Source: Anaerovorax odorimutans (GTDB lineage Bacteria > Bacillota > Clostridia > Peptostreptococcales > JAAYPU01). From it: 64,000 nucleotides of DNA. The position numbers and the translations under genes are program-made. Where the stretch lies: the NCBI GenBank assembly GCA_016841185.1, contig JAENZQ010000010.1, positions 1 through 64,000 of the forward strand, given 5' to 3'. Below are positions 3,509-59,683 of this stretch, in pieces (position 1 is the first letter of the stretch; each line of letters opens with the position of its first letter). Below the pieces are notes generated by a model. That model ran no database searches, was not told the origin of the DNA, and saw only the letters and a program-made list of their open reading frames with translations.

Positions 3509-7066
<3,558 letters not shown>

Positions 7067-53407: not shown

Positions 53408-53746
53408 TTAACTTTCTCTTGTAGTTTTTACAATTGAAACAAGAATTCTACGCATAACTTTGCAATCAGCAAGTAATTTACTTACCTCCATCTGGTCAAG
53501 CATATTTGACTCTAAAATTAATTCAAGCCAATACTCTGTTTCATACTCTTCCTTTAGTGCAATGCTCATTTTAGATAAAAAATCTTTCTTACTTTGAGCA
53601 TATTTAGCTTCTCGCAAGTTAGAACCAATACTTGTGCCTGACTTCAGCAATTAATTAGAAAAAATAAATTCATTTTTCTTCTTTAATTTTTTACAAATCG
53701 TAATGATTTCTAAAGCAAACCTAAATGAATATTCATAAACATTCAT
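53408..53746 (-). pseudogene. Four-helix-bundle (23S intervening-sequence family) protein with an in-frame stop
   Basis: From ATG 53746 (GGAAT upstream) the frame reads MNVYEYSFRFALEIITICKK, then reaches TAA at codon 32 (53653-53651), and continues in the same frame as LLKSGTSIGSNLREAKYAQS, the strongly conserved heart of the family. Relatives have Gln at the stop position (QLLRSGTSIGAN), so a single CAA-to-TAA change explains it. A shorter protein could start at TTG 53650, but it lacks helix one. The role of the family in chromosomal loci is not established. It is flanked by repeat tracts. Confidence 0.75.
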
Positions 53747-55599: not shown

Positions 55600-55914
55600 C
55601 TATTTAGATACTCTTTCAAAAATGATTCTTCCCACCCTGTCAATATGTTCTTTCAGTTTAATATGGTTGAGGTGTGTATAATCTACAATATCAAAACAAT
55701 ATGGTAAAGGTCCTTTGTCTTCCAGCATAGAATGAAGCCTTGATACGATGTCAAAAGATACCTGCTCACCGAAAATGGCTATATCCACATCGGATTCCGG
55801 ATTATGATTGCCTTTTGCCCTTGAACCAAATATGGCTGCTTTTTCAATCTCATTAAAATTCTTTATAGAAGAAATAATATACTCTAAATCAGATTCTGTC
55901 AGCCCATACTTCAT
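55600..55914 (-). CDS. MNT-type nucleotidyltransferase
   Basis: Minimal nucleotidyltransferase of 104 residues with the GSRAKGNHNPESDVDIAIFG motif (G-S-x(9-12)-D-x-D). Such proteins pair with HEPN proteins in two-gene systems, several of which act as toxin-antitoxin modules where the MNT protein modifies and silences the HEPN partner. It overlaps the HEPN gene by 4 bp. Confidence 0.88.
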   Translation of the reverse strand: MKYGLTESDLEYIISSIKNFNEIEKAAIFGSRAKGNHNPESDVDIAIFGEQVSFDIVSRLHSMLEDKGPLPYCFDIVDYTHLNHIKLKEHIDRVGRIIFERVSK

Positions 55915-56306
55915 AACAACTCACCCAGCTTAGTATTCAACTCTTTCATTATAAAGAAATATTTATTTCTTATAAGTTTTTCTGATTCTAAAGTTTTATT
56001 CTCATCATATGTATGCGCCATAAGATTTCTTTTTTCCAAAGCATCGATCCATGCATGTCCATCCGTAATAAGCTGTGTTTGGAAAGCTGTCTGTATTGTT
56101 GCCCTAGGGCTCTTTACATCAAACCCCTCATTATTCAGATAATCTTTCATTGTCTTCCAGGCTAATTCAAAAGTATATTCGAAACATTGTATTAACCCTT
56201 GGACTTCAAATTTATTTAACTCCTCTTTTTCTATGAACTCTGTCAATTGAATTGTTGCCTTATTAAAATTTTCATATCTTTGCTTCCATCTGATATCAGT
56301 GCCCAT
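55911..56306 (-). CDS. HEPN-domain partner (HI0074 type)
   Basis: Helical protein of 131 residues, with GLIQCFEYTFELAWKTMKDYL and the HEPN motif RNLMAH (R-x4-H), which in active HEPN ribonucleases forms the catalytic pair. It is paired with the overlapping MNT gene. A second copy of this pair, only moderately similar, lies at 58299-59002. Confidence 0.88.
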   Translation of the reverse strand: MGTDIRWKQRYENFNKATIQLTEFIEKEELNKFEVQGLIQCFEYTFELAWKTMKDYLNNEGFDVKSPRATIQTAFQTQLITDGHAWIDALEKRNLMAHTYDENKTLESEKLIRNKYFFIMKELNTKLGELL

Positions 56307-57274: not shown

Positions 57275-57430
57275 TATACTATCTCCTTATATAATACTCT
57301 GTCGCTTTACCCATGCCGTCTATTGTTAAGGATTTTTACGCCCGTTAATATTGAACATTTACATTTCCATTTGAAATTTTAGCAAACTACGGACTTCGAG
57401 CTTTGAACTATATACGAACTATATAATTTA

Positions 57431-57455
57431 ATTATGAAAGCCTGACCTGACCCCA
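57431..57455 (+). repeat. RAYT-adjacent repeat, divergent copy
   Basis: Reads TTATGAAAGCCTGACCTGACCCC, an altered form of GAATTATAAAAGCCTGACCCC. It begins 157 bp upstream of the RAYT start and lies 8 bp beyond the end of the glycosyltransferase fragment. Confidence 0.7.
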
Positions 57456-57462
57456 ATTATTA

Positions 57463-58257
57463 CTACAATTTGTTGAGAAACACCCTAAAACTCTTGCTTC
57501 TATCAAAGTTTTTACTTACATATTCCGAATTGTTCTGAGCCTTCTTTAAATAGCTCTCATAATCATTATTTATTTTATATAATGCTTTTATAAGACTGTC
57601 TTCTTGGTGTGCGTCAAAATATTCTCCGCAATGAAGTTCATCCAATATTTCTTTGCCTTCACCTTCTATACCATATACAATGGGCTTGTTTACTTAAATA
57701 ATCAAATACCTTGGAAGGTATTGTCTTCTCAAAAGATTCTTTCTTTTCTAATGCCAGAAATAGTATATCTGCAGTTTTCTTTACTGATCTAATGGTTTCG
57801 TCTTTTGGCATACTTCCATAATACTGAATATTAACTCCGTCTTTTTTTGCCTCTGTTAATAACTTGTCTCTAAAGGCTCCATCCCCTATAACATGAAAAT
57901 CAAATCTATTTTTTAATGATTTATCTATATTGAATGCCTTAATTAATACATCTAATTTTTGTGCCCGTCCTATATTCCCCGCATAAAAGATTGTGCGTTT
58001 TGCCTTATTCACAGCAATTCCTTCACTCTCCTTTATAGTCGGAATAATATGTATATCTTTTTCTGATACCCCATTGTAAATTACATGAATTCTTTCTTTA
58101 TTTGTATATTGACATATATAATTATACATCTTGCCTGAAACGCATATAATTTGATCTGCTTTCTTATACATAAAAGTTTCAAGTTTTTTCGTCATCTTAT
58201 AAATAATTGATTTATCAGATATCATACCGGCATCAACTGCAGAATCAGTTGTTAATG
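57463..58257 (-). pseudogene. Glycosyltransferase family 4 fragment with a frameshift
   Basis: C-terminal GT-B half of a WbuB/CapM-like glycosyltransferase. The open frame enters from the repeat at 58258 with TTDSAVDAG, then MISDKSIIYKMTKKLETFMYKKADQIICVSG, and VIYNGVS...IFYAGNIGRAQKLDVLIKAF. Near 57690 the frame breaks (DYLSKQAHCIWYRR then stop), while the next frame continues KPIVYGIEGEGKEILDELHCGEYFDAHQED to the stop at 57463; one base is missing. The N-terminal acceptor domain is absent. Both ends of the fragment lie at GCCTGACCCC repeats. Confidence 0.85.
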
Positions 58258-58278
58258 AATTATAAAAGCCTGACCCCT
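58258..58278 (+). repeat. RAYT-adjacent 21-bp repeat, copy 2
   Basis: Exact GAATTATAAAAGCCTGACCCC (21 bp, cited in two parts GAATTATAAAA and GCCTGACCCC). It marks the break point of the glycosyltransferase fragment and lies 20 bp beyond the MNT stop codon at 58299. Confidence 0.85.
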
Positions 58279-58298
58279 TCTTTAACTAAAAAATTTAA

Positions 58299-58604
58299 CT
58301 ACCTTTGATAAAAAACTACCCCAAAATCTTCAATATGTTTTCTTAAACCGTCATGTTTCAATGAATCATAATGTACTATATCAAAATAATATGGTATAGG
58401 TAATTTTTCATTTAATTCAACACTCAGATTATTTACTGTTTCTTCGGTAATAAAGGACCCATAAATAGCTAAATCAATATCAGAACCGTTCTTATAATTC
58501 CCTATAGCACGACTTCCAAAAATAGCTGCTTTCTCTATTTCTTCTCTTTTCATAAGAGCATGTACGATCATATCTTTACTTCTTGGTGTTATTCCAAATT
58601 TCAT
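58299..58604 (-). CDS. MNT-type nucleotidyltransferase, second pair
   Basis: Protein of 101 residues with GSRAIGNYKNGSDIDLAIYG, the nucleotidyltransferase motif, paired by a 4-bp overlap with the HEPN gene upstream. It lies in the stretch bounded by two GCCTGACCCC repeats (58258 and 59160). Likely antitoxin or modifier of the partner; function is inferred from family context. Confidence 0.88.
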   Translation of the reverse strand: MKFGITPRSKDMIVHALMKREEIEKAAIFGSRAIGNYKNGSDIDLAIYGSFITEETVNNLSVELNEKLPIPYYFDIVHYDSLKHDGLRKHIEDFGVVFYQR

Positions 58605-59002
58605 ATTTCTCTTCCTAACAAACTATGGACTTGTGATATTGCAGAATAGTATTCTTGCTTTATTTTATTTACAGCTAAATCAAATCTTTTTTCATCATAT
58701 GTATGGGCTAAAATATTTCTTTTCTCTAACATATCCATCCATATTTCTCCGTCTTGTATTAACTCATAATGGTACGCTGCTTTAATGACTTCTCTTGGGA
58801 ATTTGACATCTACTTCTTTGGATTCCAAATAATCTTTCAGTGTCTTCCATGCCAATTCAAAAGTATACTCAAATCTTTGAATCAATCCCTCTTTTTCAAG
58901 TTTGCTCAATTTATCGAAATCTGATATTGCAGAATCTAGTTGATCATAAGCTTTATTAAAGTTCTCAAATCTTTGACGCCATCTGATTTCTTTCGCATTC
59001 AA
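58601..59002 (-). CDS. HEPN-domain partner, second pair
   Basis: Helical protein of 133 residues, HI0074 type (GLIQRFEYTFELAWKTLKDYLESKEVDVKFPREVIKAAYHYE), with the HEPN motif RNILAH. Its first 80 or so codons and about 150 bp of upstream DNA are repeated almost exactly 437 bp further on (59131-59590). Confidence 0.88.
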   Translation of the reverse strand: MNAKEIRWRQRFENFNKAYDQLDSAISDFDKLSKLEKEGLIQRFEYTFELAWKTLKDYLESKEVDVKFPREVIKAAYHYELIQDGEIWMDMLEKRNILAHTYDEKRFDLAVNKIKQEYYSAISQVHSLLGREI

Positions 59003-59130
59003 TCAATCATCTCTCCTCGCCAATAATCCTTCCATAATATAATTTATAAACTATTTTATCATATTATATTTGACCTGTATATGACTTCCATTTCCGAACT
59101 CCGAACCTCTAATGAATTATATAAAGTGAA

Positions 59131-59439
59131 TTATAAATGAATTATAAATGAATTATAAAATGAATTATAAAAGCCTGACCCCTTTTCTTCCTCCATTAGT
59201 TCATAATGATAGGCTGCTTTAATTACTTCTCTTGGGAATTTGACATCTACTTCTTTGGATTCCAAATAATCTTTCAGTGTCTTCCATGCCAATTCAAAAG
59301 TATACTCAAATCTTTGAATCAATCCCTCTTTTTCAAGTTTGCTCAATTTATCGAAATCTGATATTGCAGAATCTAGTTGATCATAAGCTTTATTAAAGTT
59401 CTCAAATCTTTGACGCCATCTGATTTCTTTCGCATTCAA
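59131..59439 (-). pseudogene. Truncated duplicate of the HEPN gene
   Basis: Residues 1-81 are identical to the HEPN protein at 58601-59002, then the frame runs into a GCCTGACCCC repeat and ends with the repeat-encoded tail EEEKGSGFYNSFYNSF. The RNxxxH motif and the MNT partner are missing, so it is probably inactive. The duplication includes the promoter region of the gene. Confidence 0.85.
59160..59180 (+). repeat. RAYT-adjacent 21-bp repeat, copy 3
   Basis: Copy of GAATTATAAAA-GCCTGACCCC followed by TTTTCTTCCTCCA. It is preceded by three tandem TGAATTATAAA units and lies at the junction where the duplicated HEPN fragment breaks off. Confidence 0.85.
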
Positions 59440-59576
59440 TCAATCATCTCTCCTCGCCAATAATCCTTCCATAATATAATTTATAAACTATTTTATCATA
59501 TTATATTTGACCTGTATATGACTTCCATTTCCGAACTCCGAACCTCTAATGAATTATATAAAGTGAATTATAAATG

Positions 59577-59647
59577 AATTATAAAAGCCTGACCCCTTTT
59601 CTTCCTCCATAAATGAATTATAAAAGCCTGACCCCTTTTCTTCCTCC
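59577..59647 (+). repeat. RAYT-adjacent repeats, copies 4 and 5 in tandem
   Basis: Two copies of GAATTATAAAA-GCCTGACCCC-TTTTCTTCCTCCA occur 38 bp apart (59577-59609 and 59615-59647), the last just before the 3-prime end of the glycosyltransferase at 59684. Confidence 0.85.
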
Positions 59648-59683
59648 AAACGATTTGCCTATTAAATTTTGCAGCAGAAACAA

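Follow-up and report, generated by a model that had tools for sequence, protein, structure and literature searches.

Same-direction ends beside a TIRtron-type RAYT gene and a possible accretion of genes at such ends in Clostridia

RAYTs are widespread and are usually treated as domesticated enzymes, and we know of no benefit that they bring to the host. The closest described systems are the TIRtrons, which Di Nocera et al. (2013; PMC3733652) named together with their enzymes, the TIRYTs; in the parts of that paper used here, TIRtrons carry GGGGWSAS inverted repeats, and the repeats occur singly, as dimers and in groups. According to the sections of Quentin et al. (2018; PMC6006769) that we used, most TIRYTs belong to subclass 2.1, whose C-terminus resembles Bac_DnaA_C.

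We analyzed a window of 64,000 nucleotides from Anaerovorax odorimutans (contig JAENZQ010000010.1, positions 1 to 64,000), in which several short genes and gene fragments lie between copies of a repeat next to a RAYT gene. The element shares with the TIRtrons, as portrayed in those sections, a RAYT-like Y1 transposase and a tail of the HTH/DnaA-C type, and GGGGTCAG in its repeat fits the GGGGWSAS motif; here, too, the repeats occur singly, as dimers and in groups. In contrast to them, the window RAYT has no right repeat, and the same sections describe neither gain or loss of genes between the repeats nor units made of an end, a local copy and cargo. That is, to judge from its sequence, the window element is of the TIRtron type with a left end only, and the accretion of genes at TIRtron ends appears to be undescribed in the literature searched.

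The locus also resembles three other systems. As in an integron array, a row of genes lies between short sites of the same direction next to an enzyme gene, single genes have been gained or lost (between the two related species compared below, G006 and G017), and the cargo includes defence and toxin-antitoxin genes. In contrast to integrons, the enzyme belongs to the HUH/Y1 family, there are many ends and no single attI, and the cargo adjoins a copied local stretch at a variable junction; the integron integrase model TIGR02249 exceeded its cut-off in none of the six genomes searched with it, and inspection of the repeat by eye found no likeness to attC. As in REPtrons with their REPs and REPINs, non-autonomous short repeats are dispersed by a Y1 transposase of the same superfamily, and inverted dimers occur; here, however, the repeat starts with GGGG instead of GTAG and belongs to the transposase element as its terminal inverted repeat. 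The repeated element beside the RAYTs is not a GTAG-tagged palindromic REP but starts with GGGGTCAGG. Finally, the rolling-circle elements IS91 and ISCR use an HUH enzyme, have one fixed and one variable end, and capture neighbouring genes. These features are shared, but the enzyme family differs, and the units described here stack beside the end with local copies.

The features of the locus are collected in Table 1. The 10-mer core of the repeat, GCCTGACCCC, occurs exactly on the plus strand at 58268, 59173, 59587 and 59626, and a fifth plus-strand copy, at 57445 in front of the RAYT, has one mismatch because of a 5-bp CTGAC duplication within it. The five repeats of one direction that the first-pass annotation had reported are thus present, four of them exact. 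Six matches with at most one mismatch were found in the window against 1.25 expected, a number reached in none of 100 shuffles. Repeats were also found outside the window, and the genome as a whole has 13 exact copies of the 10-mer and two of the reversed string. The full repeat is longer than the core and reads GGGGTCAGGCTTTTATAATTCATT(TATAATTCA) on the minus strand. A copied 13-bp flank is common to the repeats at 59173, 59587 and 59626, which are therefore products of tandem duplication.

Table 1. Positions of the RAYT gene, the end repeats and the units between them in the window
Feature	Position	Strand	Remarks
RAYT/TIRYT, 299 aa	56375..57274	-	Pfam Y1_Tnp + Bac_DnaA_C; HUH NHAH, catalytic-type YIHQNP
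RAYT's own left end GGGGTCAGGTCAGGCTTTCATAATTAAATTA, with 5-bp internal duplication	57424..57454	-	matching left end upstream of sister RAYT (L038)
Unit 1: glycosyltransferase (GT) fragment, 5'-truncated, frame-broken	57455..58253	-	ORFs 57659-58225, 57463-57645
End repeat GGGGTCAGGCTTTTATAATTCATT, then direct junction to GT fragment	58250..58277	-	
Unit 2: HEPN 58601-59002 + MNT 58299-58604	58299..59002	-	Pfam
13-bp copied flank TGGAGGAAGAAAA + end repeat, before full HEPN	59143..59195	-	
Unit 3: truncated HEPN copy (HEPN')	59196..59439	-	5 differences from HEPN
Copied flank + end repeat, before truncated HEPN	59557..59609	-	
Unit 4: 39-bp tandem unit, flank TGGAGGAAGAAAA + GGGGTCAGGCTTTTATAATTCATTTA, outermost end	59610..59648	-	beside GT2 gene stop (59684)

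A scan of contigs with the single RAYT protein returned no relatives, and a profile of two sequences found 80 in named genomes. A sister of the window RAYT has 73% protein identity (G001, locus L038). Y1_Tnp was present in all 43 aligned relatives and Bac_DnaA_C (E<=0.001) in 24 of the 43; in the window RAYT the latter domain scored 37.9 bits against a cut-off of 31.5, in agreement with the earlier description of an intact RAYT with a DnaA-C-like domain adjoining the repeats. The motif NHxH was found in 40 and Y[IVL]xxNP in all 41 of the relatives checked, and the window RAYT has both. In a search of the PDB with the RAYT profile, DnaA alone was matched, over profile positions 169-280.

We surveyed the surroundings of the best 41 of the 80 relatives (L038-L078). 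In 36 of these loci, GGGTCA precedes the RAYT at a distance of at most 150 bp; an inverted copy lies at or just after the RAYT stop codon in 34, and both sides carry the motif in 30. As controls, the reversed string was found at one locus upstream and at none downstream, and the opposite orientation at two and two. Within one element, left and right ends agree over as much as 27 bp, and the sequences differ between elements. The position and orientation of GGGTCA around the RAYTs identify GGGGTCAGGC... as the inverted repeat at the termini of the RAYT element, hereafter called the end. The window repeats continue as TTTTATAATTCATT, close to the left end GGGGTCAGGCTTTCATAATTCATT of the sister L038, and are therefore cognate ends of the window RAYT. 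The sister, like the window RAYT, has the left repeat only. A second RAYT of the same genome (C67, L031) has perfect 27-bp inverted repeats on both sides, beginning TGGGGTCAGGCTTGACAAATTGAC. L031 also contains (at 5542-5961) a RAYT copy that is truncated at its 3' side and whose left end has decayed; it bears a copy of the 7-bp flank (GTAAAAT) found at the intact element, 1.7 kb away.

The genes reported between the window repeats were borne out by Pfam and by their positions. The innermost unit contains a 5'-truncated group-1 glycosyltransferase (57463-58225) with a frame break near 57650. Its junction lies about 14 bp past the GGGGTCAGGC core of one repeat, and its stop codon is a few bases away from the GGGG that follows; a DNA search of the same genome found no second copy or donor. 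In the next unit, Pfam assigned Polbeta NTase to the MNT gene and NTase_sub_bind (PF08780), which we take to be a HEPN family, to its partner. Relatives of this pair, with 74-78% identity, occur in G034, G023, G044, G031 and G007, where the homology spans about the gene pair only. Among 60 genomes searched with its 2.2-kb DNA, none carried the window locus itself, and Rfam gave no RNA family there. Three side observations may be added. A second, diverged MNT/HEPN pair without an adjoining end repeat lies just downstream of the RAYT (55600-56306). A lone gene for a 23S rRNA intervening-sequence (S23) protein lies inside the polysaccharide cluster (53408-53650). In G034, a genome without the 12-mer repeat described below, several HEPN/MNT-like matches stand in a row (G034:C1, 572450-574696).

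The truncated HEPN copy is a 77-residue piece of the same PF08780 family (ORF 59131-59439). The unit consists of an end and about 400 bp of HEPN and reaches to a copy of the 13-bp flank with the following GGGG. The break of the HEPN copy is found 13 bp to the outside of a GGGG. Together with the glycosyltransferase junction, this bears out the earlier remark that the breaks of both fragments coincide with repeats. The copy is 98% identical to the full HEPN over 300 bp. The five differences all lie within 30 bp of the break and, with the codons read by eye, are all synonymous. The patch is nearer than the full HEPN to the HEPN genes at eight of nine other loci and equally near at the ninth, which suggests that HEPN' is a diverged copy later partly homogenized by the neighbouring HEPN. 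We also considered plain error-prone synthesis and dropped it, since five exclusively synonymous differences fit a diverged, later homogenized copy. HEPN' and the 39-bp unit are local tandem duplications and not captures.

We then asked how the ends are spread. The 12-mer GGGGTCAGGCTT occurs 131 times in 60 relatives, against three for the control, and was present in nine of the ten genomes whose RAYT homologue is full-length (identity of 39% or more) and in eight of the 50 that lack such a homologue (Fisher p 1.4e-5). The ends are about 30 bp long and near-identical inside one genome. Inverted, MITE-like dimers of them are present in the genome of the window and common in G020. In the former, one such pair of 82 bp has stacked copies of the flank and GGGGTCA at its left (C27, L032, about 4777-4889), and another of 79 bp belongs to a different subfamily, GGGGTCTGGCCTGACATT...AATGTCAGGCCTGACCCC (C43, L035, about 4196-4274). 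A single end at C22 (L034, about 5367) edges an apparent transposase or integrase gene on the minus strand and possibly disrupts it. Some ends sit without a cassette between native-looking core genes, presumably hydrogenase and Nuo genes.

Genes bounded by ends were also seen in other genomes, where we viewed eight named loci beside RAYTs and ran Pfam on ten ORFs. Ends of one direction bound a DUF1287 gene (L049), a Fic gene (L057), HicA with a small partner that looks to us like HicB (L051), a gene of 546 aa without a family (L044), two genes including one for a MORN protein (L078), and a fragment of an IS transposase (G053, L187). Among 40 loci with an end of their own, extra similar ends more than 300 bp from the RAYT pointed inward in 13 cases and outward in five, a bias that is suggestive without being decisive and that we do not count as proof.

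To follow single genes at the ends, we compared G006 and G017, two species of one genus that is independent of the genus of the window. At their orthologous RAYT loci (G006:C11 and G017:C9; about 83-94% DNA identity), many ends face the RAYT from both sides. With the RAYT's own ends excluded, the ends with the exact core pointed inward in 10 of 10 cases in the first 34 kb compared in G006 and in five of five in 28 kb of G017, two sets that are not independent. Between successive ends, G006 has additional genes: a PLD/helicase/DUF3427 protein with a NUDIX gene, an AAA_14/DUF4143 gene, a 242-aa protein of unknown family, a Gate-domain protein and a GNAT protein. PADLOC assigned the first three to mREase_IV, PDC-S07 and PDC-S01, so that the predicted cargo includes a type IV restriction enzyme and NUDIX and AAA defence candidates. 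Neither G017 nor G046 has the GNAT protein, and G055 has a 78% match to it at the end of a contig; G046 and G055 have too few ends for comparison.

At a second pair of loci (G006:C8 and G017:C7), extra blocks between ends include a BspA-type repeat protein, a CBASS-cyclase-like ORF and others. This ORF (L181, 2151-2582; 143 aa, PADLOC 6.5e-46) is apparently truncated. No RAYT lies within the stretch of the G006:C8 array that we read. At a third pair (G006:C1 and G017:C1), G006 has an ion-channel gene and G017 an EamA transporter at the same place beside an orthologous end, and the likeness of the two sequences starts exactly at the end. An aminotransferase gene common to both arrays has a counterpart with 87% DNA identity in G038, inside an unrelated operon, and the likeness covers the ribosome site to the stop codon and nothing beyond. 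This looks like the capture of a single gene, whose direction we infer. G038 had been tried as an outgroup for the G006 array; it was not collinear and gave this donor-like context instead.

In order to clarify the link between break points and ends, we took the G006-specific segments of at least 250 bp (n=10, from four of six locus pairs; two pairs had none). For six of the ten, a boundary is no more than 50 bp from an end; random intergenic positions gave a mean of 1.82, and six was reached in 9 of 5000 permutations. With a limit of 20 bp the number was three (267 of 5000), and with 100 bp it was seven (28 of 5000). Three of the ten segments, and likewise several specific to G017, have no end at or inside them; thus other processes also act. 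The first-pass annotation had set against its own reading the case of relatives with the same gene content and repeats unlinked to break points; in the relatives compared, the gene content differs, and the break points are linked to ends.

The anatomy of the units is an end, a variable local copy and foreign cargo. In G006:C11, the local copies behind paired ends measure 304 bp (97%), 265 bp (95%, with one end degenerate) and 106 bp (84%). In the 265-bp and 106-bp pairs it is the outer copy that leads into foreign cargo, and in the 304-bp pair it is the inner, truncated one. The row in the window shows the same unit logic in its HEPN' unit and its outermost 39-bp unit. Small tandem duplications across the flank/GGGG border were counted, without a control, at 32 of 209 unique core sites (18 loci, several genomes), and they could be ordinary slippage.

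The fixed GGGG side and the variable copied side fit an HUH enzyme that would nick between the flank and GGGG. We think it somewhat probable that the window repeats are left ends of a TIRtron that act as growth points, beside which units are added in the same direction by RAYT-based extension and switching. The RAYT would nick at the border and stay on the 5' end, while the free 3' end of the flank would be extended, copying the end and some of the sequence behind it. The growing strand may then switch to another template, and the new 3' end would be rejoined to the held GGGG. Each unit would consist of an end and a variable stretch copied from behind that end or a neighbouring one, often followed by foreign DNA, and would stop right at the next end's GGGG or close to it. 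Without a switch, tandem copies such as the 39-bp unit and the HEPN copy would result; with a switch, cassettes such as the glycosyltransferase fragment and probably the MNT/HEPN pair. The RAYT may be the agent of gene accretion at the ends.

The units could also have formed with the ends as inert dispersed repeats, which the RAYT only spread and at which RecA-type homologous or microhomology recombination duplicates and exchanges DNA. The length and near-identity of the ends in each genome, the G006:C8 array with no RAYT in the stretch read, and the apparent homogenization of HEPN' by HEPN all agree with this. Such recombination, however, predicts neither the precise GGGG boundary with unrelated outer DNA seen at G006:C1 and G017:C1 nor units in which an end and a local copy are joined to foreign cargo, and we consider it unlikely. 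The latter units also bear on one-ended transposition, in which the RAYT would cut out single-stranded circles that start at an end and stop anywhere downstream, and reinsertion before another end would move whatever cargo lay behind the first. This accounts for insertion in one direction and for units with GGGG at one boundary and a variable second boundary, a pattern shown by truncated copies at C67 of the same genome and in G053; yet local sequence and foreign cargo would have to be joined beforehand elsewhere, and no such intermediate was found among the ends examined. We judge this course of events to be rather improbable as well.

It may further be asked whether the row is a coincidence, that is, an ordinary variable intergenic spot where the HEPN copy goes back to a single tandem duplication and the remaining genes came independently. 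Regions of polysaccharide and toxin-antitoxin genes are variable in general, indels away from ends exist, and units 3 and 4 of the window are plain tandem duplications. Against this, both fragments break at repeats, boundaries are enriched at ends in relatives, and genes lie between ends beside RAYTs in several other genomes. Coincidence therefore seems to us very improbable.

Returning to growth at the ends by RAYT-based extension, the first-pass annotation had read the row as the capture or shuffling of genes in a cassette-like array. This reading stands in part: genes are gained, lost and exchanged at cognate ends in relatives, whereas HEPN' and the 39-bp unit are local duplications, some ends have no cassette, and some indels lie away from ends. 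The partial support for cassettes comes from comparison of relatives, outside the window. In its widest form, we put forward only tentatively that TIRtron ends are an integrase-free gene-capture system, in which nicking by the Y1/HUH enzyme at the flank/GGGG border, extension, template switching and rejoining would stack single genes (notably restriction, CBASS-like, Fic, HicA and MNT/HEPN genes) as cassettes of one direction in Clostridia, and perhaps beyond. If this is true, it makes an exact and easily assayed prediction, namely junctions at GGGG. If RAYT ends do accrete genes, cassette-like arrays would have a second route of origin that needs no integrase, and this would help to explain the build-up of small toxin-antitoxin and defence genes between the core genes of Clostridia.
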